The notes under the pieces are model-generated. The model was not told the origin of the DNA, searched no databases, and saw nothing but the letters and a program-made list of their open reading frames with translations. Shown here in pieces: positions 5,667-18,431 of a stretch of 64,000 bases of DNA. Numbering within the stretch: the first letter of the stretch is position 1; each line of letters begins with the position of its first letter. Both the position numbers and the translations under genes were made by a program. The DNA comes from Planctomycetota bacterium (GTDB lineage Bacteria; Planctomycetota; UBA8108; JACQVS01): NCBI GenBank assembly GCA_016209605.1, contig JACQVS010000015.1, positions 1-64,000 on the forward strand, in the 5' to 3' direction.

Positions 5667-6332
5667 ATGACCGACGAAGCTTGCAACCGACCAGACCGCC
5701 ACGAGCCGCCGCCTCCGGGAGAAGGCGGATCGCCTGCCGCCTCGAGGGCTCGGCGGGTGGTGGTCGGCGTCACCGGGGCGAGCGGAGCGATCTACGCCCA
5801 CCGCCTGACGGCCGAGCTGCTGCGCCGCGGCGCCGAGGTCTTCCTCGCCGCCTCCAGCGCCGGGCGGCAGGTCATCCAGGAGGAGATTCCCGAGCTGGCC
5901 GGCCCGGCCGACCGGATCTTCGCCCGCTTGCCTCCGGGCGAGCTGCGGATCTTCCACGAAAAAGACTTGTTCGCCCCCTTTTGCAGCGGCTCCTTCGCCT
6001 TCCACGGCATGGCCGTCGTTCCCGCCTCCATGGGAACGATCGGCGCCCTCGCCTCCGGCTGCGTGAGCAACTGCATCCACCGCGGCGCCGAGGTCGCCTT
6101 GAAGGAGAAACGGCCGCTCGTCCTGGTTCCCCGCGAGACCCCCCTCTCGGCCATCCATCTGGAGAACCTGCTGCGCCTCGCCCGCGCCGGGGCCGTCATC
6201 CTGCCGCCCATGCCGGCCTTTTACCAGCATCCCCGGACCATCGGCGATCAGGTCGACTTCGTGGTCTCGCGCGTCCTCGACCATCTGGGCTTTGACAACG
6301 ACCTTTTCCCCCGCTGGACCGAACGGCCATGA
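5667..6332 (+). CDS. ubiX: Flavin prenyltransferase (UbiX type)
   Basis: UbiX makes prenylated FMN, the cofactor of UbiD-type decarboxylases; in the futalosine pathway the partner acts on the prenylated naphthoate. Key motifs are VVVGVTGASGAIYAHRL, VVPASMGTIGALASGC, and the late VPRETPLSAIHLENLLRLA and PPMPAFYQHP. Length is 221 aa with an extra Pro/Gly-rich N-terminus of about 30 residues. No UbiD homologue is present in the window. The gene overlaps the next one by ATGA. Confidence 0.93.
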   Translation: MTDEACNRPDRHEPPPPGEGGSPAASRARRVVVGVTGASGAIYAHRLTAELLRRGAEVFLAASSAGRQVIQEEIPELAGPADRIFARLPPGELRIFHEKDLFAPFCSGSFAFHGMAVVPASMGTIGALASGCVSNCIHRGAEVALKEKRPLVLVPRETPLSAIHLENLLRLARAGAVILPPMPAFYQHPRTIGDQVDFVVSRVLDHLGFDNDLFPRWTERP

Positions 6333-7285
6333 GCCCCGCTGATTACCCGCCGCCTCCCGGAGGCTCCACCGCCGCCACCGAGCCGCTCCGCCCGCCCGCC
6401 GCAGCCCGCGGCCGGAGCCTCCTCGAGTCGGTGAAGACCTTCGGCGAGATGATCAAGATCTCGCACTCGGTTTTCGCGTTGCCTTTCGCCGTGGCCGCCT
6501 TCTTCGTCGCCGCCGGCGGCGCGCCGGACTGGCTGCTCTTCCTCAAGGTTGTCCTCGCCTGCGTCTTCGCCCGCACCGCCGCCATGTCCTTCAACCGCTG
6601 GGCCGATGCCTCGATCGACGCCCGCAATCCGCGCACCCGCGGCCGCGCCCTCCCCGCCGGACAGCTCCACCGCGGCGCCGTCCTGGCGGCGTCGGCGGCC
6701 AGCGCGGCCCTCTTCATCGCCACCGCCTTCTGGATCAACTCTCTGGCCTTCCGGCTCTCTCCGGCGGCGCTCCTCGTGCTTCTCGGCTACTCCTACACCA
6801 AGCGCTTCACCTCGGCCTCGCACCTGGCCCTCGGGCTCGCCCTGGGGCTTTCGCCGCTGGGGGCATGGGTGGCGGCGCGCAACGAGCTGGCGCTCTTCCC
6901 CGCCCTGCTGGGCCTGGCGGTGCTCTTCTGGACCGCCGGCTTCGACATCATTTACGCCTGCCAGGACCTCGACTTCGACCGCCGGGAGAAGCTGTTGTCG
7001 ATTCCGGCGCGCTGTGGGATCGCCCGCGCCTTGTGGATCTCCCGCCTGTTCCACCTGCTGACCCTGGGTCTCCTGGCCGTCTGCGGCTGGATAGCGGGCT
7101 TAGGCCCCGCCTACTTTTCTGGTATCATGATAGTTGGCGCGCTGCTCCTCTACGAGCAATGGGTTGTTCGCGGAGATGACCTGACGCGGGTCAATGTCGC
7201 CTTCTTCAACCTGAACGGTTTGATCAGCGTGATCTACATGACCGCCACCTTGATCGACCTTTTTCTTTTCAAACGCCAGCCATGA
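6329..7285 (+). CDS. UbiA-family prenyltransferase (MqnP-like)
   Basis: This integral membrane enzyme (318 aa, eight or nine TM segments) attaches a polyprenyl chain to an aromatic ring. The first Asp-rich motif is NRWADASIDARNPRTRGR and the second DLDFDRREKLLSIP. The pattern is that of the bacterial 4-hydroxybenzoate-type group that includes MqnP of the futalosine pathway. The Pro-rich N-terminus of about 30 residues is an unusual extension. It overlaps ubiX upstream and the pseudokinase gene downstream by 4 bases each. Confidence 0.9.
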   Translation: MSPADYPPPPGGSTAATEPLRPPAAARGRSLLESVKTFGEMIKISHSVFALPFAVAAFFVAAGGAPDWLLFLKVVLACVFARTAAMSFNRWADASIDARNPRTRGRALPAGQLHRGAVLAASAASAALFIATAFWINSLAFRLSPAALLVLLGYSYTKRFTSASHLALGLALGLSPLGAWVAARNELALFPALLGLAVLFWTAGFDIIYACQDLDFDRREKLLSIPARCGIARALWISRLFHLLTLGLLAVCGWIAGLGPAYFSGIMIVGALLLYEQWVVRGDDLTRVNVAFFNLNGLISVIYMTATLIDLFLFKRQP

Positions 7286-8349
7286 GCTCGACCGAAGGAT
7301 TTCTGCTGTCTGCTTACCTGCGCTCCAAAGGTCCGGTTCCTTACTCCAAGGCGGCCCGGATCGCCTGCGAGCTGTTGAAAATTCTGGAGAAGGCGCGGCA
7401 AGGCGGCGGCCCGGCGCCGCTGGCCATCCATCCGGGCCGCATCCACCTCGACGCGCGGGGGAAGGTGGATCTGCTGCCGGAGGAATCCGGCGCGGCGCCG
7501 GAGGCGGATCGCCTGCTGGCATACCAGGCGCCGGAAGTGCTCGCGGGGAAGGCGGGCGACTGGCGGTCGGCCCTCTACTCCCTGGGAGCCACGCTCTTCG
7601 AGCTGCTCACCGGCCGGAAGGCGCGCTCCGGAGCCAGCGCCGCGGAGGTTCTGAAGGAGAAAGTTCCCGAGCTGCGAGAGCTCAATCCAAGCATCCCCGT
7701 TTCCCTCGCGGCCATCGTCCAGTCGCTGCTCGCCGGCGATCCCCGGGCGCGGCCTCAGAGCCCCCTCCAGGTCCTGGAACGGATCCAGCAAGCCATGGGC
7801 TACGGCGCGAGCGCGGGCGCTGCGGCTCCTCGGCCGGCCGCCGCGCCCGCGCCGCGGCGGCCGCGGCCTGAAAAAACGCCGCGCCGGACCCCCGTCCCGG
7901 AGGAGTGGGAAGAGGAGAGTCCGGAGCGCTACGTGGTGGTCAAGCCCCGCCAGCGATACTTCACTTACGGCGGCATCGCCGTGGGCGGCATGATCTCGTT
8001 CTTCCTGGTCTTCACCGCGCTCAAGCGACACGACCAGCTTCCCAAACAGCAGGCCCAGCTCCTTCAAGCGCAAACCGAAGCGGCGGCCAGGGCCGTTCTC
8101 ACCCAGCGCCTGGGCGAGCGCCGCCGGCAGTTCGAAAAGGAGGAGAAGGAGGCGGCCAGGCATCTGGAGCAGAAGCTGCAGCTCAAGATCTCCGACAACA
8201 TGAAGATCACCGTCCTATCCGGCATGGTGGACCACTACTTTCACACCCCCAGCGGCCGGCTGATGGCGGAGGAGGTGGCCAAGCTGCGTCCGAAGCCCCA
8301 GATCGGCAATCCGGACCGCCCGCCGCCGAAAAAACAGGGTGAGAATTGA
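7282..8349 (+). CDS. Membrane-anchored pseudokinase (C-lobe only)
   Basis: The first 170 residues match only the C-lobe of a Hanks-type Ser/Thr kinase: HPGRIHLDARGKVDLL where the catalytic loop and DFG should be, then YQAPEVLAGKAGDWRSALYSLGATLFELLTG (APE and subdomain IX). The glycine loop, catalytic Lys, HRD Asp and DFG Asp are absent, so phosphotransfer is not expected. A Pro/Ala linker, a TM helix (IAVGGMISFFLVFTAL, about 232-247), a Lys/Glu-rich coiled coil and a short C-terminal domain follow. It sits between the prenyltransferase and nuclease genes with 4-base overlaps. It may scaffold at the membrane. Confidence 0.75.
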   Translation: MSSTEGFLLSAYLRSKGPVPYSKAARIACELLKILEKARQGGGPAPLAIHPGRIHLDARGKVDLLPEESGAAPEADRLLAYQAPEVLAGKAGDWRSALYSLGATLFELLTGRKARSGASAAEVLKEKVPELRELNPSIPVSLAAIVQSLLAGDPRARPQSPLQVLERIQQAMGYGASAGAAAPRPAAAPAPRRPRPEKTPRRTPVPEEWEEESPERYVVVKPRQRYFTYGGIAVGGMISFFLVFTALKRHDQLPKQQAQLLQAQTEAAARAVLTQRLGERRRQFEKEEKEAARHLEQKLQLKISDNMKITVLSGMVDHYFHTPSGRLMAEEVAKLRPKPQIGNPDRPPPKKQGEN

Positions 8350-9104
8350 ACAAACCGCGTCAGCGTCATTTGCTCTACTTCTTGACCGGCCTGGTCGCCC
8401 TGCTCGTCTATTATCTCCAGCGCGGCGGCTTTCCACCCGCGTCCCAGCCTTCCCTCCCCCCCGACGATGCGGCGGTGTACGCGGAGCTCTCGCAAAAGGC
8501 GGAGTTCTCGCAACAGACTGGGCGCGGCTTCGGCCGCCTGGAGGGGCCGGTCGGCCGGGCCATTGACGGCGACACCATCCAGCTCCTCGATGGCACCCGG
8601 ATTCGTTATCTCGCCGTCGACACCCCCGAGAAGGACGCCCCCTTTTACCGGCAAGCCCTGGAGCTCAACCGCCGACTCACAGAAGGCCAGCGGACCATCA
8701 TCTTCACGGCCGCCAGACACCAAAAAGACGCCTATGGAAGGGTGCTGGGGGCGGTGTTCATCGAGACCGGCGGGCTCTCGGGCAGTTCTACCAATGCTTC
8801 CCCGACGGTCCTGCTCGTCAACGCGGAGCTGATCCGGCAAGGCCTGGCCCATCTTTACCTGAAGGACAGTAATCCGCTCACCGAGGCCCTCAAACCGGTC
8901 CTCCTCGAGGCCCAGGCCTGGGCCATTGACCACCAGCTCGGCCTCTTTCCGGGCGAGCTGAAGGCGGGCCAAGCGGTGCTGGCGACCCGCTACCGCTACC
9001 ACCGCCCCGGCTGCCAGAACCTCAAAGCCGGCGAAGGGAAGCCCATGGACCGCGAGACGGCGCTGCGCTCTGGCCGCAGTCCCTGCAGGACGTGCCGGCC
9101 GTGA
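8346..9104 (+). CDS. Thermonuclease-like (SNase) protein with metal-binding tail
   Basis: This 252-residue protein starts with a TTG overlapping the previous stop and has an N-terminal membrane anchor or signal (HLLYFLTGLVALLVYYL). The SNase fold is clear: AIDGDTIQLLDGTRIRYLAVDTPEK carries the Ca-binding Asp, the catalytic Arg and the Glu of the PE motif, and KDAYGRVLGAV carries the second Arg. The tail YHRPGC...SPCRTC is a His/Cys set typical of small zinc-binding tails seen on some secreted nucleases. It probably acts outside the cytoplasm. It is sixth in the ubiE operon. Confidence 0.82.
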   Translation: MNKPRQRHLLYFLTGLVALLVYYLQRGGFPPASQPSLPPDDAAVYAELSQKAEFSQQTGRGFGRLEGPVGRAIDGDTIQLLDGTRIRYLAVDTPEKDAPFYRQALELNRRLTEGQRTIIFTAARHQKDAYGRVLGAVFIETGGLSGSSTNASPTVLLVNAELIRQGLAHLYLKDSNPLTEALKPVLLEAQAWAIDHQLGLFPGELKAGQAVLATRYRYHRPGCQNLKAGEGKPMDRETALRSGRSPCRTCRP

Positions 9105-9127
9105 GGGTTGAAAGGATGGTTCGAATC

Positions 9128-9973
9128 ATGCAAGAATCTCCAGAATTGCCCTGGTTGCGCGAGATGGTTCCTGAGGCCCTGGAAGGGCTCTTCCAGGAGA
9201 ATGACGCCGAGATTCCCCGCACCGTGCAGCGGCTGGTTGAGCATATGGACTACGACCGCAACCTTGAGACCCAGCTCATCGAAACGCTGCAGACGGCCGT
9301 CGAGCAGCACAACGATGACACCCAGGGAGCCATCTGGATCGCTTTGATCCTTGGCGAAAAGCAGTGCCACCCGGCGATCCCCCTCCTCCTCACGGCCCTG
9401 GGCGAAGAGGAGGATGAAGAGCTGCAAGCGGCCGCGGGCATCGCCCTTCTCAAGATGGGCTCCCAGGGCGTCGAGTCCTTGATCGAATCCCTGGAGGAGG
9501 AAAGTCCTTCGGTGGGTCTGCTGCAGGCCGGCTGTCGCCTGCTCGGCCACGTCGGCTACCTCGACGACCCCGACTTGCGCCAGCGGGCCATGGACTTCCT
9601 CCTCGAGCGGCTGGAGGCGGAAAAGCGCCGCCCCGGCGCCGATCTTCTGATCGAGAACATCGCCTCGGCGCTGGCCGAGCTGGGCGACCGCCGAGCCATC
9701 CCGGCGCTTCAGGCCATCTTCCAGGAGCGCTTCCAGGAGAACAATGTCGCGCTCCAGGACGCCCTGGAAATGCTGGAGGAAAATCTCAACGGCCAGGCCC
9801 GAACCGGCGACTTCATCCCGGGGGAAGAGGATTACCGCTGGGCCTTCGAGGCGGAGCCGGAGTCGCAGGCAAAAAAGAAAGCAGGGGCCAAAAAATCCCG
9901 GCGCCGCCGGAAAGGCCTCACGAAGGATATGAAAAGATTCTACCGGGGCCTGGGAACGGAATTCGAGCCGTAA
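9128..9973 (+). CDS. HEAT-repeat protein
   Basis: This soluble 281-residue protein is built of helical pairs with HEAT character, for example GAIWIALILGEKQCHPAIPLLLTAL, AAAGIALLKMGSQGVESLI and NIASALAELGDRRAIPALQ. The C-terminus is a Lys/Arg-rich tail (KKKAGAKKSRRRRKG) that may bind nucleic acid or membrane. The start at 9128 is favoured by AAAGGATGG 8 bases upstream; ATG 9116 is possible. It is the last gene of the ubiE operon. Its partner is unknown. Confidence 0.78.
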   Translation: MQESPELPWLREMVPEALEGLFQENDAEIPRTVQRLVEHMDYDRNLETQLIETLQTAVEQHNDDTQGAIWIALILGEKQCHPAIPLLLTALGEEEDEELQAAAGIALLKMGSQGVESLIESLEEESPSVGLLQAGCRLLGHVGYLDDPDLRQRAMDFLLERLEAEKRRPGADLLIENIASALAELGDRRAIPALQAIFQERFQENNVALQDALEMLEENLNGQARTGDFIPGEEDYRWAFEAEPESQAKKKAGAKKSRRRRKGLTKDMKRFYRGLGTEFEP

Positions 9974-10054: not shown

Positions 10055-11830
10055 CTAGAAGTCCGACTCATCCTCGTCCAAGTCGTCGATGAACTCCTCC
10101 CCTGGCGCTTCCTGGGCGCGCACGGCGGCTTTGGCGATATGCTTGAAGAGGAGAAGGTTCTCCGGGTTCTTGCGCAGCTGGTCCCAGCGAAAGTTCCAGG
10201 CCCGCTCCGACTGGTTTCCCGCCCCCAGGCTCGAGACGCAGGTGTTGGGCCACTTGTCGCTCAAGGAGTGGCGCAGCTGCCACGCCTTGCCGGAGTCGAT
10301 GCCGCTCGCGGAGTCGAGCGCTTCCTTGGCATAGTACTTGGCCTGGTCGCGCAGGTCCCAGGCGCGCGGGTCTTCGGACCGGCCCAGCGTCTTGACGATG
10401 ATCTTGGGGGCGCAGCGGAGGAATCGGACTCTCCACTCCCAGGACCGGTCGCTCTGCAGACCCCGCAAGCTCATCAGCACCCAGGGCAGGTACTCTTCGT
10501 GATGCTCCACGCGGATCTTCCAGGCCCGGTCGCTGTCGATGCCGCCCAGGCTGATCAGCAAGGCCGGGATCGCGGTGCGCTTGTCGGCCCGCTTCTCCCT
10601 CAGCGCCCAGGCCGGCTCGGAATCGATCCCTTGCAGGCTGATGAGCACCTCGTTGGGCGCCTTCTTGCGCAGCCGCTCCCGCAACACCCAGGCCGAATCG
10701 GTCTCGTTGCCGCGCAGCGCCAGGGCGACCTGCTGGGGGGCAATTTCCGCCATTTGCTCGCGCATGGCGATGGCGCGGGGGTGGAAGGCCATTCCGGACA
10801 AGCTGGCGGCCACGTACAAGGGCTCGCGCTCCAGCAAGCGGGCCCGGAAGTTCATGCTCGGCTCGGAAACGCAGCCGCGCAGGCCGTGGGCGATCAGGGC
10901 CGGCTCCCGTTCGATCAGCTCCTCGCGGATCTCGTGGACTTCCATGATGTCAAAGCCGGAGATGAACAGCGCCGCGTAGGCGCTGCGGCCCGGCACCATG
11001 GCGCGGATCTGGTCGAAGAAGATCTTGATCGAGTGCTCCTGGCGCTTCTTGGCCTCGCCCATAGCCAACAGCTTCTCGACCGCCACTTGAAGGGGAGAGG
11101 AGGTTTGTTTGTGCTTTTCGGCCTCCTCCAGGTTGGCCCAATGGGGATCGAGGATGGCGGGATAACCCTTCAACCTGAGGACCTCGCTGACGCGGTTGAA
11201 AATGCGCTGCAGCGACTCCTCGATGGTCGAGCGAGCGTTGTCGATGACGATCCAGGAGCCTTTGTTCTCCTCGGCCAGCTCCAGGAATCCCTTGCGTATT
11301 TGCTCGCGGAAACCGATGCCCATGAGGCCCTTGCGGCCGAAATCCCCCAGCCGATGCTCGCGGATTTTCTGGAGCTTCTTGCGTACCCGCGAGGTCAACG
11401 GATCGACATCGCAGTACACCACCAGATCCGGCCAGAGGCCGCCGGCGGCCATGCTCAGGACATGATCGACGATCTGGCGGTCGAGGCCGCGGCCGTGATG
11501 CGACTGGGTCAAGGCGGAGTAGAGGTACCGGTCGCTGAAGATGACATGACCCGGCTTCAGCTTGGGCCGGATGTACTCATCGATCATCTGGGCATCGCGG
11601 GCGACATACAGCAGGAACTCGGTGACATCCGACATCCCCAGAAAGCTCGGATCGCGCGTCAGCTCGCGAATGGCGCGAGACACCTTGGAGCGGAAAACCC
11701 CCTGGTCGCGGGCGTGGTGCACCGGAATCCCTTGCGACTTGAGGTATTCGGCGAGGCGGTTGGACAAGGTGGTTTTACCACTCCCATCGATTCCTTCAAA
11801 ATCAATAAAAATCGGTTGCGGCTCCGCCAT
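10055..11830 (-). CDS. Thymidylate-kinase-like domain fused to 27-residue Trp repeats
   Basis: Residues 5-230 form a P-loop nucleotide kinase of the dTMP kinase type: FEGIDGSGKTTL (Walker A), FSDRYLYSALTQSHHGRGLD (the DRY and GRG motifs) and YCDVDPLTSRVRKK. Ordinary dTMP kinases end near 210 residues; this one has 591. Residues of about 290-570 hold roughly ten degenerate repeats of 26-29 residues with consensus SLxGIDSxxAWxLRexxxxxxPxxVL. The last seven have Trp at 381, 408, 437, 464, 491, 517 and 545. An acidic tail ends the protein. The Met at 11830 follows AGGA by about 8 bases. It lies downstream of the VTC gene on the same strand. Confidence 0.85.
   Translation of the reverse strand: MAEPQPIFIDFEGIDGSGKTTLSNRLAEYLKSQGIPVHHARDQGVFRSKVSRAIRELTRDPSFLGMSDVTEFLLYVARDAQMIDEYIRPKLKPGHVIFSDRYLYSALTQSHHGRGLDRQIVDHVLSMAAGGLWPDLVVYCDVDPLTSRVRKKLQKIREHRLGDFGRKGLMGIGFREQIRKGFLELAEENKGSWIVIDNARSTIEESLQRIFNRVSEVLRLKGYPAILDPHWANLEEAEKHKQTSSPLQVAVEKLLAMGEAKKRQEHSIKIFFDQIRAMVPGRSAYAALFISGFDIMEVHEIREELIEREPALIAHGLRGCVSEPSMNFRARLLEREPLYVAASLSGMAFHPRAIAMREQMAEIAPQQVALALRGNETDSAWVLRERLRKKAPNEVLISLQGIDSEPAWALREKRADKRTAIPALLISLGGIDSDRAWKIRVEHHEEYLPWVLMSLRGLQSDRSWEWRVRFLRCAPKIIVKTLGRSEDPRAWDLRDQAKYYAKEALDSASGIDSGKAWQLRHSLSDKWPNTCVSSLGAGNQSERAWNFRWDQLRKNPENLLLFKHIAKAAVRAQEAPGEEFIDDLDEDESDF
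10123..10963 (-). repeat. Coding array of about ten 27-residue Trp repeats
   Basis: Each unit has a short Ser/Asp turn, an (A/S)W pair, a basic helix and a hydrophobic helix ending in SL. Spacing between successive tryptophans is 27, 29, 27, 27, 26 and 28 residues. The earlier units (for example VHEIREELIEREPALIAHGL) have lost the Trp but keep the period. Confidence 0.75.
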
Positions 11831-11964: not shown

Positions 11965-12891
11965 CTAGCTGGGATTCTCGGAGGAGTTTTCCTTGCTGTA
12001 ATCCTGGCTGGAGTTGACGTTGGATTTTTTTCCCAGCCGGCGCTGGGGCGGCCGGACCTCCCCCGTGCCCCTCCCCCCCAAAGGCGTGTCGCCCATATTG
12101 AAGATGTCCGAGCCGTTGGCGCTGTCCAGCTCCCGGGTGAGCAGGTTGATGCTGGTGGTGAACTTCGAGACCCGCCGCGGCGGCATGGATCCCAGTTCTT
12201 TCTCCAGCCACTCCGGATAGCGGTTCTCCTTGCACTTGATTTCCAGGATGACCTTGTTGATCGTCTGAATGGGCCTTCCCAGCGTCTGGCGGTTCAAGGA
12301 CTCGACCCGGTCGTAAAGCCCGCGGACCGGCTGAAAAACCTCCAGATTTTCGTCAAAGGTCACTCTCAGCTCTTCTTCGTTCTTCTGGTACACCGTCCGC
12401 CGGTAGTTGATGATGGATCGGGGGCGAACGGTGTAATGCTGGAGATACCTTCTCAGCTCGTTGTAAACCTCCCCGAAATCATCAAAGGCCAGGCTGGGAT
12501 CGGAGTTGACCAGCTGGTCCAGGATGTTCTTCCCCTCGAAAAGCTGGTTGATGAAGGATTTCGGCACCCTCAACCGCCGTTTGATCACCAGACCTTCCAC
12601 CCGTTGCTTGATCTCGACAAAGCAGCAAGGGAACCACTCGAGCGTTTTCCCATCGCCCAGCTCGTAATAATATTCCTTGACGCGAATCTTGGTGTTGTTG
12701 TCGTAATGGTGAGTGGCGCGGTTGTAAAATTCGTAGAGATCGGTGTCGTAGTATATGGTGGAAATGAAGGTATGGGACCGGCCTCTGCGGAACTCGTAGA
12801 GGGGCAAATGCTTCGAAACCACTTCCTTGAGGCGCTTGGCCTCTTGCATCTCCAGCTCGTACTTGATTTCGCGTCGACCAAAGATACTCAT
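11965..12891 (-). CDS. VTC-domain polyphosphate polymerase
   Basis: This 308-residue protein has the VTC catalytic tunnel pattern: RREIKYELEM at the start, STIYYDTDLYEFYNRA, KIRVKEYY, CCFVEIKQRVEGLVIKRRLRV, INYRRTVY and LRVTFDENL, closing with NKVILEIKCKE. These alternating basic and acidic strand residues bind ATP, Mn and the growing polyphosphate chain in the family. It is cytoplasmic, with no membrane segment, so it lacks the eukaryotic anchor. The C-terminal 50 residues are low complexity. A consensus promoter lies 250 bases upstream. Confidence 0.88.
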   Translation of the reverse strand: MSIFGRREIKYELEMQEAKRLKEVVSKHLPLYEFRRGRSHTFISTIYYDTDLYEFYNRATHHYDNNTKIRVKEYYYELGDGKTLEWFPCCFVEIKQRVEGLVIKRRLRVPKSFINQLFEGKNILDQLVNSDPSLAFDDFGEVYNELRRYLQHYTVRPRSIINYRRTVYQKNEEELRVTFDENLEVFQPVRGLYDRVESLNRQTLGRPIQTINKVILEIKCKENRYPEWLEKELGSMPPRRVSKFTTSINLLTRELDSANGSDIFNMGDTPLGGRGTGEVRPPQRRLGKKSNVNSSQDYSKENSSENPS

Positions 12892-13146
12892 TGACGTCTT
12901 CACCACGCTCTGAAAAATTCACCGTGGGGGATTATGGCGTGCGGTTAATGGGCGATTGGAAGCTTCCTCGGGCTCCCTTCCCGGCAGGCACCCGGGAACG
13001 ATGCAGGAACAAAAATTCCTTATCCCCTTCACGGCCCTTCCTTCCCCGGGTTGAAAAACGGTTTACAAGCTTCACTCTATTACAGACAACCGTTATCGGA
13101 AGTAAAGGTGCTGAAACTAGATACTCCACTGAGAAAATTCAAGTCC
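12892..13146 (-). other. Long untranslated leader of the VTC gene
   Basis: If the promoter at 13147-13174 is used, the mRNA leader is about 250 bases, unusually long here. No ORF or recognised riboswitch is visible. The stretch is markedly less GC-rich than the genes on either side. Confidence 0.4.
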
Positions 13147-13174
13147 ATTATAGCCAGGAGGGGGTCGATGTCAA
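13147..13174 (-). promoter_or_regulatory. Consensus sigma-70 promoter for the VTC gene
   Basis: On the minus strand TTGACA (13169-13174) and TATAAT (13147-13152) both match consensus exactly, with a 16-base spacer. It lies between the porin stop and the VTC start and points at VTC. Transcription would start near 13140. Confidence 0.7.
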
Positions 13175-13208: not shown

Positions 13209-14798
13209 TTAAAAATTGATCAGCAGCTGCACGATGAGCTCGTTCGAGTCCACCGCGCCGGCGCCGGTGGACTCGCGGTTGAAGACGTACTCGGTCTTGA
13301 TGTAGATCTTCTTGGTGACCGAGAGCACCCCGCCGACCAGGAACTGCCGGCGGTCCCAGGTGCCGGGGAGGCTGGGGACCTGATCCATGCGGACATCGAG
13401 GACGCCGTAGCGCACCGTCGGCTCGACATAGTGGAAATAGTTGTCGATGAGCGGCTTGGGAAAGGAGAGGCGGTAAGAGCCCTGGACATACCAGCCGTCG
13501 CGGTCGAGGTTGCCATCCTGCGCATCGATATACTGGAAGAAAGCGTATAGCCCATCCCCCTTGCGGGTGTCCATCAAGTCGAGCCAGTCGCGCAGCAGGT
13601 GGTAGGCCTCGAGGTGGTAGCCGGCGCTGAAGCCGATGCGCTTCTGGTAGTCCTTCTCGGAGTTGCCGTAGCCGGCGGTCGGAATGCCCGCCAGATCGCG
13701 GACGGTCAGGCCGTCCTGCAGGAAATCGATGGAGTCCTGATTGAGCCGGTTGTCGAAGAAAAAGAAGAGGAAGTCCAGCTCGCCAAGGAAGTTGAAGTCG
13801 CGCTCGTAGCCGATGCCGAAGCCCAGCTCCCGGAGCGACAGGCCGGTCTTCACGTTGCGGTCATCCTGGACGATCTCCTGGAGATTCGCCTGGTCCTTGC
13901 CGATCTCCTTGACCCCGAGAGTGTGGCCATCCCCCACCGAGAAGTGCAGGACCAGGGCGCCGGGATTGTTTTCGAAGTCGAACGGCTCGTGCTCGGTCGA
14001 GGAGGTCTGCGAGGCCCGCCCGTTGACCTCTTCCAGGGCCGGAGGGGCCTCATCCTCAGCGGCAGGGGCGGAGCGCCGGCGGGGAGGTTTCGGCGCCTTG
14101 GCCGGCTTGACCGGTTTCTCCACCTTGGCGCCGCGCTTGTTGCCGATGGTACCCTTCCACATCAAGGCGATCTCCTCATCGCGCCAGAAAGCGGTGCCGA
14201 GGAGCGGATAGGTCTCCGAGAGGCGGGCGCTGGGGCCGATGTGGATGAAGCGGTCGTCGAGGCCGATCTGCGACTCGGTACGGAACCACCACTCGTGCTT
14301 CCAGTCGTGAAAGAAGCTCATTTCTTTAAGAAGGGTGTTGCCCCGGTCCGGGCGGAAGTCGAGCTGGCCGCGGATGCCCACGGCCTTGCCAACGTCGAGC
14401 TCGGGCTCGAGGCGCAGGCGGTCGAACTCGAGATGGGGGTCGGGATTGTCGGTGGTGCCGAGGAGCGAGTCGTGCTCCGACTCGGTGTCGACGAAGTTGA
14501 GCTCGAGCTTGCCGCCCAGGCGCAGCTCGGCGGCGCCGATGGTGATGACGCCCTTCGAGTAAACTTCCTTGGCAGCCTCGACGATGCTCTTCTTGACTTC
14601 CTTCGCGATCTCCTTCTCGATCTCCTTCTTCTGCGTCTTCTCGGTTTCGGCCTTCCATTGCTCGAGCTCCTGGAGGCGCAGCTCGATCGACTCCCGGGAA
14701 GCCGGGCGCTCGCGCGGCTGGGCCAGGAGCGGGTCGCGGGGAAGGAAGGAGAACATCCCTCCTCCCAGGATCAGCAAGGTCAATAATCGGCGCTTCAT
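13209..14798 (-). CDS. Outer-membrane porin, OprO/OprP-like
   Basis: This 529-residue precursor starts with a signal peptide (MKRRLLTLLILGGGMFSF), followed by a coiled coil (residues 38-80, for example ELEQWKAETEKTQKKEIEKEIAKE is part of it in shorter runs) and then beta strands. AELRLGGKLELNF, LRLEPELDVG and GQLDFRPDRG resemble the first strands of the phosphate-selective porin group. A Lys/Pro/Ala-rich insert (about 225-265) interrupts the barrel, probably as a surface loop. The chain ends in Phe, as outer-membrane barrels do. Substrate is unproven; the neighbouring polyphosphate polymerase gene makes phosphate plausible. Confidence 0.75.
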   Translation of the reverse strand: MKRRLLTLLILGGGMFSFLPRDPLLAQPRERPASRESIELRLQELEQWKAETEKTQKKEIEKEIAKEVKKSIVEAAKEVYSKGVITIGAAELRLGGKLELNFVDTESEHDSLLGTTDNPDPHLEFDRLRLEPELDVGKAVGIRGQLDFRPDRGNTLLKEMSFFHDWKHEWWFRTESQIGLDDRFIHIGPSARLSETYPLLGTAFWRDEEIALMWKGTIGNKRGAKVEKPVKPAKAPKPPRRRSAPAAEDEAPPALEEVNGRASQTSSTEHEPFDFENNPGALVLHFSVGDGHTLGVKEIGKDQANLQEIVQDDRNVKTGLSLRELGFGIGYERDFNFLGELDFLFFFFDNRLNQDSIDFLQDGLTVRDLAGIPTAGYGNSEKDYQKRIGFSAGYHLEAYHLLRDWLDLMDTRKGDGLYAFFQYIDAQDGNLDRDGWYVQGSYRLSFPKPLIDNYFHYVEPTVRYGVLDVRMDQVPSLPGTWDRRQFLVGGVLSVTKKIYIKTEYVFNRESTGAGAVDSNELIVQLLINF

Positions 14799-14835: not shown

Positions 14836-17800
14836 TTAACGGCATTCGAGATCATCCGGCGTCAGGTCCACACCCTCCTGCGGGTAAGGTTCGGGTATCC
14901 TCTGGCCGGCCTTGAACAGGAAGTTGAGCAGGAAGAGGCCATCGGCCACGTCCAGTTTGCCGTCATCGTTCGTGTCGAAGGCATCCAGGCAGGTCGGCCG
15001 CGGAACCTTCTCGAAGAGCACCCGGAACAGCCAGGCCGCATCGGAGATGTTGACCAGGCCGTTCTTGTTGGTGTCGCCGCGGATGAACTTGCCTTGCGGG
15101 CAGAGGTCGACGGGGAACGGCCCCGCGTTCAGCTCGCCGCCGCGGGTGTCGACGAGATGCACGGTCACCGTCATGGCGCCGGCGCTCCCCGCGCTGAAGA
15201 TCGCGTTGAAGCCGATGCGCGCCTGGCATGTCGGCGGCGCGGGAGTGAAACGGCGCGACAAGCTGAGCGGCATGGTCTCCTTCACCCCATCCCGGTCGAT
15301 GATGAGCTCCGCGGTCCCGAGGCCGAAACCCGCCGGGCGCAGGACGACCTCGCGCAGGAAGACCAGGGAGTCCCCCTCGATTTGCAAGGTGTCGGCCGGC
15401 TTGACGCACTCGCCCGGCCGGCCGCCGATGACCTTGATGTTCACGGCCCCGGGGATCTCCGGCGCCTTGTAGAAATCACGGCAGTTGGTCTCGCCCGGCG
15501 TCGGCGCGGGGACGTTGAGGAGCTGGATGGTCGGATCGCCGTCCGGCAGGCGCCCGAAGGCGCGGTCCGGCCGCGGCGTGCAGTCGTTGTTCGTGAAGAA
15601 GCTCCAGGTGATCCGGTCGATCGGGCAGTTGCCATCGGCATCGCGCGAGAGCACGTGGAGGATCTCGTTGCAGTTGTCGAGGAGGATGGTGTGGACGAGC
15701 AGCGTCTGCGTTTTTATGCCTTTCGCCTCCAGCACCTTCAGGTCGGGCTGGTCGTTCAGCGGATCGACGAAGAGGAAGAGCAGGAACTCCTTGGGGGGGA
15801 TGATGGTGCCGGCGGGGATGCGGTACTCGCGCACCTTGCCGATGAGGCCCGCGGGGCAGCCCGGCTGGTCCTTTTCGTCGGCGAGGAACATGTCCCCCAC
15901 GTCGAGGGGCGAATCGCCGGCGTTGTACAGCTCGGCGAAGTCGGGCGGCTCGAGGTTGGGGTCGTCGTAAAGCTCCTTCAAGGTCGCCTCGCTCAAGGGG
16001 AGCGCCTCGTTCCAGACGAGGGGCGGCTTGGCCGGGCTGTAGGCGAAGCGGAAGGAGGCCAGGGGCGAGGCCGCCTCATCGTGGATCGTCGGCTCGGCGA
16101 ACGACGGGTCGATCTCCCCCTTCGCGGCCCGCTCCGCCAGCACCAGATCCTTGGCGCGGAAGAAGAAGGTCACCAGGGTCCCCCGCGGCCCCTCCGGCAG
16201 CACGGCGCTGAGGCGGTAGGCGGTGGCGCCGGCGACCGGCGCGGGATTGAAGCACTGGCGGTCGACCACCTCCGAGAGCGGCTCGACGGTCAAGCCGTTC
16301 TGCCGGCTCAAGGTGACCGGCGCGGCATTGCCGGCCTGGTAAACCAGCTCGACCTCGAAGCTCGGCTTCTCCGGCGTGTCCTCCTTCACGGTGTCCTGGT
16401 CGATGCTCACGAAGGCGATGATCTGGGGCTTGTCGGCCGGCGGCTCCTCGATGGCCCGCGGGCAGCGCGGCAGCACCCACACCAGCTTCTCGAAGGCCGG
16501 CTTGATGTCGCAGGCCAGCAGGTTGGGGCCGCCGGGGGTCGGGCAGGTGAAGCGGCAGCCGGGCCGGAGGGTGCGGCGCTCCCGTCCGTCTTCCTCCTCA
16601 ACGGTGCTGAGATCGCACTCGGAAGACGCTGGATGCTCGCCATCGCCGCCGCCTCCATCGGGATAGCGGCCGAAGGAGAGGTCGGGAGCGACCCCATCCG
16701 CCCCCTCCCCGGAGAAGTCGAACTCGGCGAGATCGACCACCTGGGTATCGGGGTCGAGGAGGGCGATCAGGTCGGGATCCAGTCTGCTCAACTGGAAGTC
16801 GGCGGAATACAGCCGCGCGCGCGTCCCCGGCTGGCCCGCTTCATAGTAGGTCTTGAAGGGGGGGTTGTCGCCGTCGGCGACGATCAGCAGGAACTCCTTC
16901 GGGTCGATGCGGTCGATGCAGACGGCATCGAAGCGCCAGAGGAACAAGCACTCCGGGGGGGTCGGATCCTCGAGGGGGCAGAGGTTGGAGAAGTCTTTAT
17001 CGGGGGCGAAGCAGAGCGGCCTCTGGTCCGGTTTTCCCAGCTCGCCGAACTTGGTCAAGCCCACCAGCGAGTAGCCCTTCAGGGAGACCGGCTGATCGCC
17101 GTAGTTGTAGATTTCGATCCAGTCGGAGCTCACCGGCCCGGACCCGGAGGGCTCCTCTTGAGCGTTGAACTTGTCGAAGAGGATGGTGCTGTGGTTGCGC
17201 GGCTGGTACTCGTTGATGACCACCGGCGGCAGCGGCCCGCCGACCACCTGGCAGTCCTCGCGGATGCTCTCCCCGACGATGTTCTCGACGCGGATGAGCA
17301 GGTCCAGCTTGGTGCCTGCCGGGCGGCGCGGAATCATTGCCGAGAGAACGATCCGGTGCATGGTGAAGCGGCAGGTCTTGCACGACGGGAAGGTCTCCCC
17401 TTTGAAATTGCGCCGCGTTTCCTGAACGTCACTGCGGCGGATCTCGGTGAGCGGAATGGGCCCGGGAATCACCTCCAGAACCTCGCCGCGGGGGCAGGCG
17501 CTGACGACGCGGATCTCGACGATTTCCTTGGCGAGCAATTCGAGGTCCTCAAGAAGCGTCACCGTGACCGGAATCAGCTCCGGCTCGGGCCCCAGGGCTC
17601 CCAGGTTGCTGCGCCCAAGGTAGCGCGGCGGCTTGATGCCGATGGGCTTGTTGGGCATGCCGGGGGTGGGGACGTAGATGACCCCGTAATTCTTCTCGTC
17701 GCTCTGCGGCAGGCCATCGGGGTATCGACCGACCGCGACGTTATCCTCCTGCAGGGCGTAGCCGCGCTCCTCGAGGAGGCCGCGGCCGCGGCCGCCGAAG

Positions 17801-18297
17801 AGATGGAGCTTCTCGCCGCCCCCTCTCAGCCTGAAGGGAGCGTGCAGAGGCCCCTTCTCGGGCTGGTTGTCGCAAATCACCACCAGGAAGCCTTTGGCCG
17901 GGATGACCATGCCGTCGGGGAAGGTGAAGCGGCGCGGCCGGATGCGGTCATCGGAGAGGCTGTAGTCGGTGAGGTTGACCGGCTTCTCCAGGGGGTTGTA
18001 AATCTCCACCCAGTCGACCGGCTGGCCATCGGCATCGAGCGAGATGGTTTTATCAACTTCGGCGTAAAAATCGCTGAAGCGAATAGCCTGCGGAGCGGCA
18101 TTGGCATTGGCGAAGATCTCATTGATGACCAAGGGCTCGAATCCGGCCCCTCCTCTCGAGCGCTTGCAGGAAGAGGCCGAAAACAATAAGAGCGCCAGCC
18201 CGGCGGAGATGAGCAGGCGAAAAAACAGCTCTTCTCCGGCTCGCCGCGGGAAGTTGGGAAGGAACTGGATGTGGGTCAACAAACCCGGCTTCACCAT
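14836..18297 (-). CDS. Lamin-tail-domain lipoprotein with C-terminal dockerin-like pair
   Basis: This large exported protein (1153 aa) has a lipobox (FSASSC) about 45 residues in, suggesting outer-membrane anchoring. At least three lamin-tail domains are recognisable by INEI/NEY starts and WVEIYNP-type motifs: VINEIFAN...VDWVEIYNP, VVINEYQPRNHS...SDWIEIYNYG and VWNEALPLS...PDFAELYNAG. Each ends in a FGRYPDG or FGRLPDG motif. The C-terminus (about 1070-1150) has two EF-hand-like loops, GDTNKNGLVNISDA and DTNDDGKLDVADG. The first in-frame Met (18357) would give an extra 20 residues; neither start has a good RBS. Confidence 0.78.
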   Translation of the reverse strand: MVKPGLLTHIQFLPNFPRRAGEELFFRLLISAGLALLLFSASSCKRSRGGAGFEPLVINEIFANANAAPQAIRFSDFYAEVDKTISLDADGQPVDWVEIYNPLEKPVNLTDYSLSDDRIRPRRFTFPDGMVIPAKGFLVVICDNQPEKGPLHAPFRLRGGGEKLHLFGGRGRGLLEERGYALQEDNVAVGRYPDGLPQSDEKNYGVIYVPTPGMPNKPIGIKPPRYLGRSNLGALGPEPELIPVTVTLLEDLELLAKEIVEIRVVSACPRGEVLEVIPGPIPLTEIRRSDVQETRRNFKGETFPSCKTCRFTMHRIVLSAMIPRRPAGTKLDLLIRVENIVGESIREDCQVVGGPLPPVVINEYQPRNHSTILFDKFNAQEEPSGSGPVSSDWIEIYNYGDQPVSLKGYSLVGLTKFGELGKPDQRPLCFAPDKDFSNLCPLEDPTPPECLFLWRFDAVCIDRIDPKEFLLIVADGDNPPFKTYYEAGQPGTRARLYSADFQLSRLDPDLIALLDPDTQVVDLAEFDFSGEGADGVAPDLSFGRYPDGGGGDGEHPASSECDLSTVEEEDGRERRTLRPGCRFTCPTPGGPNLLACDIKPAFEKLVWVLPRCPRAIEEPPADKPQIIAFVSIDQDTVKEDTPEKPSFEVELVYQAGNAAPVTLSRQNGLTVEPLSEVVDRQCFNPAPVAGATAYRLSAVLPEGPRGTLVTFFFRAKDLVLAERAAKGEIDPSFAEPTIHDEAASPLASFRFAYSPAKPPLVWNEALPLSEATLKELYDDPNLEPPDFAELYNAGDSPLDVGDMFLADEKDQPGCPAGLIGKVREYRIPAGTIIPPKEFLLFLFVDPLNDQPDLKVLEAKGIKTQTLLVHTILLDNCNEILHVLSRDADGNCPIDRITWSFFTNNDCTPRPDRAFGRLPDGDPTIQLLNVPAPTPGETNCRDFYKAPEIPGAVNIKVIGGRPGECVKPADTLQIEGDSLVFLREVVLRPAGFGLGTAELIIDRDGVKETMPLSLSRRFTPAPPTCQARIGFNAIFSAGSAGAMTVTVHLVDTRGGELNAGPFPVDLCPQGKFIRGDTNKNGLVNISDAAWLFRVLFEKVPRPTCLDAFDTNDDGKLDVADGLFLLNFLFKAGQRIPEPYPQEGVDLTPDDLECR

Positions 18298-18431
18298 AAA
18301 AGATCTAAGGAGCGCAAAATGCGTCCACTGGACATGGCTTGAAATCCATAAAGCCATATCCGCTCACTTATTCCAAACCACTTTCAATGATAGCAGAAAG
18401 CCCTTCTTTTGACTATGCCGTTCCCGAGGCC

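Follow-up and report, generated by a model that had tools for sequence, protein, structure and literature searches.

A recurrent fusion of a thymidylate-kinase-lineage domain with a ten-repeat helical solenoid, encoded beside a VTC-type predicted polyphosphate polymerase

The window, a stretch of 64,000 nucleotides from a Planctomycetota genome, carries on its minus strand a gene in which a kinase domain is fused to an array of helical repeats. The open reading frame runs from an ATG at 11830 to a stop at 10055, exactly the boundaries assigned by an earlier sequence-only reading of this DNA, and encodes 591 amino acids. Upstream on the same strand lie a gene for a predicted polyphosphate polymerase, a promoter-like element and two further genes. 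The features of the locus are as follows.

10055..11830, minus strand: kinase and helical-repeat fusion gene (open reading frame and translation; recurs in 20 aligned full-length homologues)
11171..11830, minus strand: kinase domain, residues 1-220, thymidylate-kinase fold (PF02223, TIGR00041, AlphaFold2 model)
11771..11797, minus strand: P-loop E-G-I-D-G-S-G-K-T, residues 12-20 (invariant through K19 in 20 members)
11594..11599, minus strand: R78-D79, Asp/Glu in place of the thymine-contact Arg of canonical thymidylate kinases (position 79 of the aligned rows)
11285..11395, minus strand: basic lid region, residues 146-182, with an invariant R-K-G-L-x-G (net-charge comparison)
10163..10993, minus strand: ten two-helix repeats of about 27 residues, residues 280-556 (periodicity and AlphaFold2 models; no family match)
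11965..12906, minus strand: VTC-domain gene, predicted polyphosphate polymerase of the TTM fold (PF09359, 2.1e-33), directly upstream of the kinase gene
13147..13174, minus strand: perfect sigma-70 consensus TTGACA-16-TATAAT upstream of the VTC gene (12/12 match)
13209..14798, minus strand: upstream gene, probably for an outer-membrane beta-barrel (no Pfam match of its own; syntenic in relatives)
14836..18357, minus strand: secreted lamin-tail and dockerin protein of 1173 amino acids (PF00932, 1e-24; PF00404, 1.6e-5)

The sequence-only reading had described a P-loop kinase with Walker A, DRY and GRG motifs, and these are indeed found at residues 11-20 (F-E-G-I-D-G-S-G-K-T), 100-102 and 113-115. 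Residues 7-220 match PF02223 (1e-25), and the protein scores 96.4 bits against TIGR00041, the dTMP kinase equivalog, whose cut-off of 83.25 is also passed by the homologues from loci L016, L033 and L034. An AlphaFold2 model of the whole protein, built from 39 sequences, reached a pLDDT of 94.1 and a pTM of 0.91, and the best PDB matches of its kinase part in Foldseek were all thymidylate kinases (Tmks; TMt about 0.9). The likeness to Tmks (PF02223/TIGR00041; Aquifex 2pbr, Thermus 5x7j) covers the fold, the P-loop, DR[YF], GRGL and about 30-35% identity over 200 residues. Column comparison with plain Tmks showed that the P-loop Lys, DR[YF], GRGL and the lid Arg are retained, and the phosphoryl-transfer residues K19, D100-R101 and R166 of the lid are invariant in the fusion family.

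The differences from Tmks concern the residues around the base and the lid. At position 79 all family rows hold Asp or Glu, whereas canonical Tmks have Arg in 28 of 29 cases and Lys in one. The equivalent Arg74 of Mtb TMPK hydrogen-bonds the thymine ring (PMC3619541, PMC6920704), with the Mtb residues placed on the fusion family by sequence alignment and not through a bound structure. The Tyr and Gln of the AYQ motif (Y109/Q110), present in 29/29 canonical Tmks, are absent from the family, and the DRxE lid motif at positions 165-168 is replaced by [SG]-R-K-G within a basic R-K-G-L lid. The lid has a mean net charge of +8.6 in 10 family rows versus +1.7 in the 29 canonical Tmks. The family also differs from Tmks by its tail of about 370 residues with the solenoid, by its separate clade and by the presence of a second Tmk in every genome checked. 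In a kinase-domain tree (n=50), the 20 fusion members formed a single clade on a long stem against 30 plain Tmks (support 100/100). The second, separate Tmk was found in 17/17 genomes and scores 141-178 bits, compared with 84-107 bits for the fusion; in the window's own genome it lies on contig 250. Since a better-scoring Tmk is present in all 17 genomes, the label ‘dTMP kinase’ is probably a misannotation of the fusion family. A thymidylate kinase function, as the domain's earlier name implied, is thus not borne out, the thymine-recognition residues being replaced family-wide and a higher-scoring Tmk being present in every genome tested. Judged by its residues, the fusion kinase is a Tmk-lineage descendant and a distinct family that appears to have lost thymine recognition and kept the phosphoryl-transfer core. 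Annotation pipelines would label this large family dTMP kinase, as it passes the NCBIfam equivalog cut-off, but it very probably is not one.

The tail had been read as about ten repeats of 27 residues forming a helical solenoid, and both points are supported. Self-similarity of the C-terminal half peaks at offset 27 (+0.149, against -0.301 for the best of 1000 shuffles), while the same periodicity test gave no such peak in the kinase half. Ten units of 26-31 residues share the consensus PxxVLxSLxGxDSxxAWxLRExL. The Ala-Trp pair reported for each repeat does mark the array, but Trp is common rather than invariant among aligned family members and the Arg of the x-L-R position is better kept: it occurs in 10/10 repeats of the window protein, with eight of these Args invariant in 20/20 full-length aligned members and a ninth kept in 19/20. 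Structure prediction, which the sequence-only reading had suggested as a check, gave a confident model of both kinase and solenoid. In the AlphaFold2 models the array is helical throughout and forms an alpha-solenoid of helix pairs (mean pLDDT above 90), each unit consisting of a helix of 6-7 residues and one of about 10; the tail alone, modelled from ten sequences, reached a pLDDT of 91.3.

The expectation that this C-terminal part belongs to no known repeat family was supported by sequence and fold comparison. The tail of the window protein had no match in Pfam, NCBIfam or PHROGs, nothing significant in the PDB by sequence (best profile match E 0.35), and its model had no Foldseek match in PDB or BFVD at E<=0.001 (best PDB 3.9e-3). 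HEAT, ARM, TPR or other repeat families were absent among the Pfam matches of 20 members. Profile matches of single homologues' tails to Ribosomal_L10, XTBD and FliG_C were weak and inconsistent between members and were rejected. The tail resembles HEAT/armadillo alpha-solenoids in its stacked two-helix repeats with a conserved acidic residue and an Arg per unit. In HEAT repeats such a ladder of Asp and Arg is structural, and the Arg ladder of the tail may be so too or may form a binding surface. However, it differs from them in its 27-residue unit and its Asp-Arg spacing as well as in the lack of a Pfam match or a Foldseek PDB match at that threshold. We conclude that this is a previously undescribed helical repeat with neither a library match nor a significant fold match.

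Tail-bearing fusions were present in 14 of 78 relatives, the window's own genome counted. Of 145 Myxococcus-class genomes 75 carry the fusion, many of them in two copies; it is therefore recurrent and not unique to one assembly, the alternative that the sequence-only reading had named. A named collection added nine full-length homologues in Myxococcota, including Myxococcus, Archangium and Citreicoccus isolates, so that the family is present in culturable Myxococcus and Archangium. An assembly artefact was rejected in view of the occurrence in many independent assemblies and isolates. A profile built only from the repeats matched the array in 14/294 genomes of the window's phylum and 75/195 of the other phylum, and by coordinates and frame length these matches are fusion loci or contig-end fragments. 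In the genomes sampled the solenoid is confined to this kinase, with the restriction that the search scored the best candidates per genome and weaker free-standing copies could escape it. The open-access literature yielded no account of the kinase-solenoid fusion or of its VTC link, in agreement with the earlier impression that the architecture is undescribed. We thus regard the architecture as real, recurrent and, as far as that literature shows, undescribed, and its genomic association, presented below, as strong and specific.

A plasmid or viral origin was considered and rejected: the plasmid search gave no match to the tail, and matches on viral contigs were limited to the kinase part. Anti-phage defence was likewise set aside. 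PADLOC returned weak kinase-domain matches (PDC-M51B, 2.3e-10; VakA, 1.8e-7), no stronger than expected of any Tmk-like protein, and there was no defence context.

The strongest clue to the role of the kinase, absent from the sequence-only reading, is the order of its neighbours. In the window, the gene next upstream of the kinase exceeds the PF09359 cut-off of 23 with 116.3 bits. Its product, a predicted polymerase, has an N-terminal R-x-E-x-K and a C-terminal E-x-K, and its acidic patch is only partly replaced; TTM hydrolases such as AtTTM3 carry extra Glu at those tunnel positions (PMC4641920). VTC adjoins the kinase in most inspected loci of both phyla. Among 95 full-length kinase genes of the Myxococcus class, 89 are preceded by VTC on the same strand and followed by DUF4956, each at no more than 3 kb; VTC lies within 100 bases of the kinase in 69 of those 89, and DUF4956 is found within 3 kb downstream of 94 of the 95. 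At the genome level kinase and VTC co-occur in 69/73 cases (Fisher p 7e-29, overstated as the genomes are related). All 18 fusion-bearing genomes tested across the two phyla contain VTC, and all 18 contain DUF4956; the window's genome has a single DUF4956 match, on another contig (C233). Both families were also present in the same three control genomes, so VTC and DUF4956 probably form a pair without the kinase as well. The kinase thus adds to the VTC/DUF4956 pair without being an obligate part of it.

The sigma-70 consensus at 13147-13174 is one of two 12/12 matches in the 64 kb, the other lying at about 56606 on the plus strand. Matches of 10-11/12 precede VTC in several relatives, and from its sequence and position the element is likely the promoter of the VTC-kinase genes.

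Several loci show variations of this arrangement. In Myxococcota locus L181 (4532-14885), genes for VTC, a Na/Pi cotransporter, the kinase-solenoid, a PHO4 transporter and PhoU_div are clustered; there and in L038 the cotransporter gene sits between VTC and kinase, with PHO4 and PhoU_div further on. Many Myxococcus-class genomes and L034 (6401-11686) carry two paralogous VTC-kinase-DUF4956 modules, and one copy in L034 has CotH and porin genes around VTC and kinase. At the Myxococcales locus L037 (6392-11725), the kinase-solenoid gene is directly preceded by a gene for a PelF-type glycosyltransferase and an ORF for a membrane protein, PelG-like by sequence inspection alone. Pel exopolysaccharide was nevertheless rejected as the general context, as PelF occurs in 3/58 genomes of the class. 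In Gram-positive pel clusters, CotH, poly-phosphate polymerase and DUF4956 are neighbours (PMC7112168). These modules have VTC and DUF4956 in common with the fusion operon, but a kinase-solenoid gene is not among the Gram-positive sets described in that work.

The fusion, the residue changes, the separate clade, the paralogy and the gene order are all observed by computation. The near-constant place of the kinase between a predicted polyphosphate polymerase and a membrane protein suggests that it probably works in phosphate/polyphosphate metabolism rather than in DNA-precursor synthesis. As our best explanation, offered tentatively, the fusion would be a neofunctionalised phosphotransferase in a VTC-DUF4956 phosphate/polyphosphate module, with the solenoid as a docking arm. 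A Tmk-lineage kinase may have changed its substrate and joined a module that comprises a polyphosphate polymerase of VTC type and the membrane protein DUF4956. We infer an active P-loop site, which would transfer phosphate between a small acceptor, not dTMP, and either ATP or polyphosphate. The basic lid could hold a phosphate-rich substrate, much like the lid of PPK2. The ten repeats may serve as a rigid arm fixing the kinase to a VTC/DUF4956 assembly at the membrane, and such docking might couple polymer synthesis to phosphorylation of the acceptor. In favour of a polyphosphate module count the lid charge (+8.6 versus +1.7) and the other phosphate genes at L030, L034 and L181. Against it count the score above the NCBIfam dTMP kinase cut-off, the missing PPK2 profile match, the near-neutral solenoid, the occurrence of VTC and DUF4956 without the kinase and the place of the window genome's one DUF4956 match on a separate contig. 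Bacterial VTC and DUF4956, whose role is poorly known, gain a constant partner through this association, and with it a function that can be put to the test.

The arm is unlikely to bind the polymer itself. The net charge of the solenoid is near neutral (-9 to +10 over about 314 residues), which argues against a polyphosphate-binding surface. CHAD domains (PF05235) offer a parallel as helical modules encoded with or fused to TTM-type polyphosphate enzymes (PMC6537752). However, CHAD is built from a pair of four-helix bundles whose surface is strongly basic, in contrast to the near-neutral solenoid of ten two-helix repeats, and PF05235 had no match among 20 fusion members in Pfam.

A more specific form of the phosphotransferase proposal, possible but doubtful, is a polyphosphate-using nucleotide kinase derived from Tmk independently of PPK2, which would phosphorylate NMP or NDP from the polyphosphate of the neighbouring VTC, or run in reverse. 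PPK2s and Tmks descend from a common P-loop ancestor, and polyphosphate binds to PPK2s beneath a lid of Lys and Arg (PMC8776046); by analogy this ancestry and lid mechanism would fit, as do the VTC operon and the basic lid of the fusion. With PPK2 (PF03976) the fusion has in common the wider P-loop superfamily, a lid rich in Lys and Arg and a genomic association with polyphosphate genes. The PPK2 profile did not match the window protein at E<=1, and the parallel is one of lid chemistry and ancestry, not of family membership; we know of no such solenoid in PPK2. Eight of the nine fusion genomes from the window's phylum gave no PPK2 match, a point in favour, but several of these eight are incomplete assemblies. 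Real PPK2 is present in 7 of 8 Myxococcota fusion genomes tested, where a fusion acting like PPK2 would in part duplicate it, and net charge alone is no demonstration of polyphosphate binding. Equally doubtful is the fullest version of the idea, a new polyphosphate machine in which 27-residue helical repeats of a new class anchor a Tmk-derived phosphotransferase, distinct from PPK1 and PPK2, to the bacterial VTC polymerase and the membrane protein DUF4956. Such a machine would couple the synthesis or translocation of the polymer to the phosphorylation of some acceptor, a nucleotide or another molecule.

Alternatively, the protein might be a regulatory nucleotide sensor with little catalysis, in which nucleotide binding reorients the solenoid and turns VTC/DUF4956 on or off. 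SPX domains regulate eukaryotic VTC, and the fusion could play an analogous part; its solenoid is restricted to this kinase and accompanies the VTC/DUF4956 pair, as would be the case for a dedicated regulator. We nonetheless consider this unlikely, because the invariant P-loop Lys, DR Arg and lid Arg favour catalysis. Still less probable is a cell-envelope module, in which the kinase would act on an acceptor related to polysaccharide or surface protein, beside CotH-type kinases and Pel-type genes. The CotH gene adjoining VTC and kinase in L034, the PelF-type gene and PelG-like ORF upstream in L037, the contiguity of CotH, poly-phosphate polymerase and DUF4956 with pel clusters in Gram-positives (PMC7112168) and the secreted lamin-tail-dockerin gene of the window are in line with it. 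However, PelF is found in 3/58 genomes although most large genomes of the class carry the fusion, and CotH was seen at one inspected locus only, VTC being the constant partner. That the fusion is a second functional dTMP/dNMP kinase with a protein-binding tail, its operon place a regulatory convenience, is very improbable: the PF02223 match, the TIGR00041 scores above cut-off (window, L016, L033, L034) and the nearest folds, all Tmks, speak for it, but thymine-contact Arg, AYQ and DRxE are all replaced, 17/17 genomes have a better-scoring Tmk, a long stem branch separates the family from Tmks, and the VTC linkage would go unexplained.

Further genes accompany the module. A Porin_O_P gene lies beside it in L030 and L034, in line with the beta-barrel proposed for the window gene at 13209-14798. 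The protein encoded at 14836-18357 combines three lamin-tail domains with a dockerin-like repeat, and in close relatives synteny between its gene and the VTC-kinase pair is kept. On the plus strand of the window, a HEAT-repeat gene at 9092-9973 (HEAT_2, 5.8e-10) is convergent to the kinase gene and keeps this position in most close relatives. The cassette at 5667-9104, also on the plus strand, encodes a flavoprotein (UbiX-like), a UbiA prenyltransferase, a degenerate protein-kinase-like protein and an SNase, and is largely syntenic in relatives.
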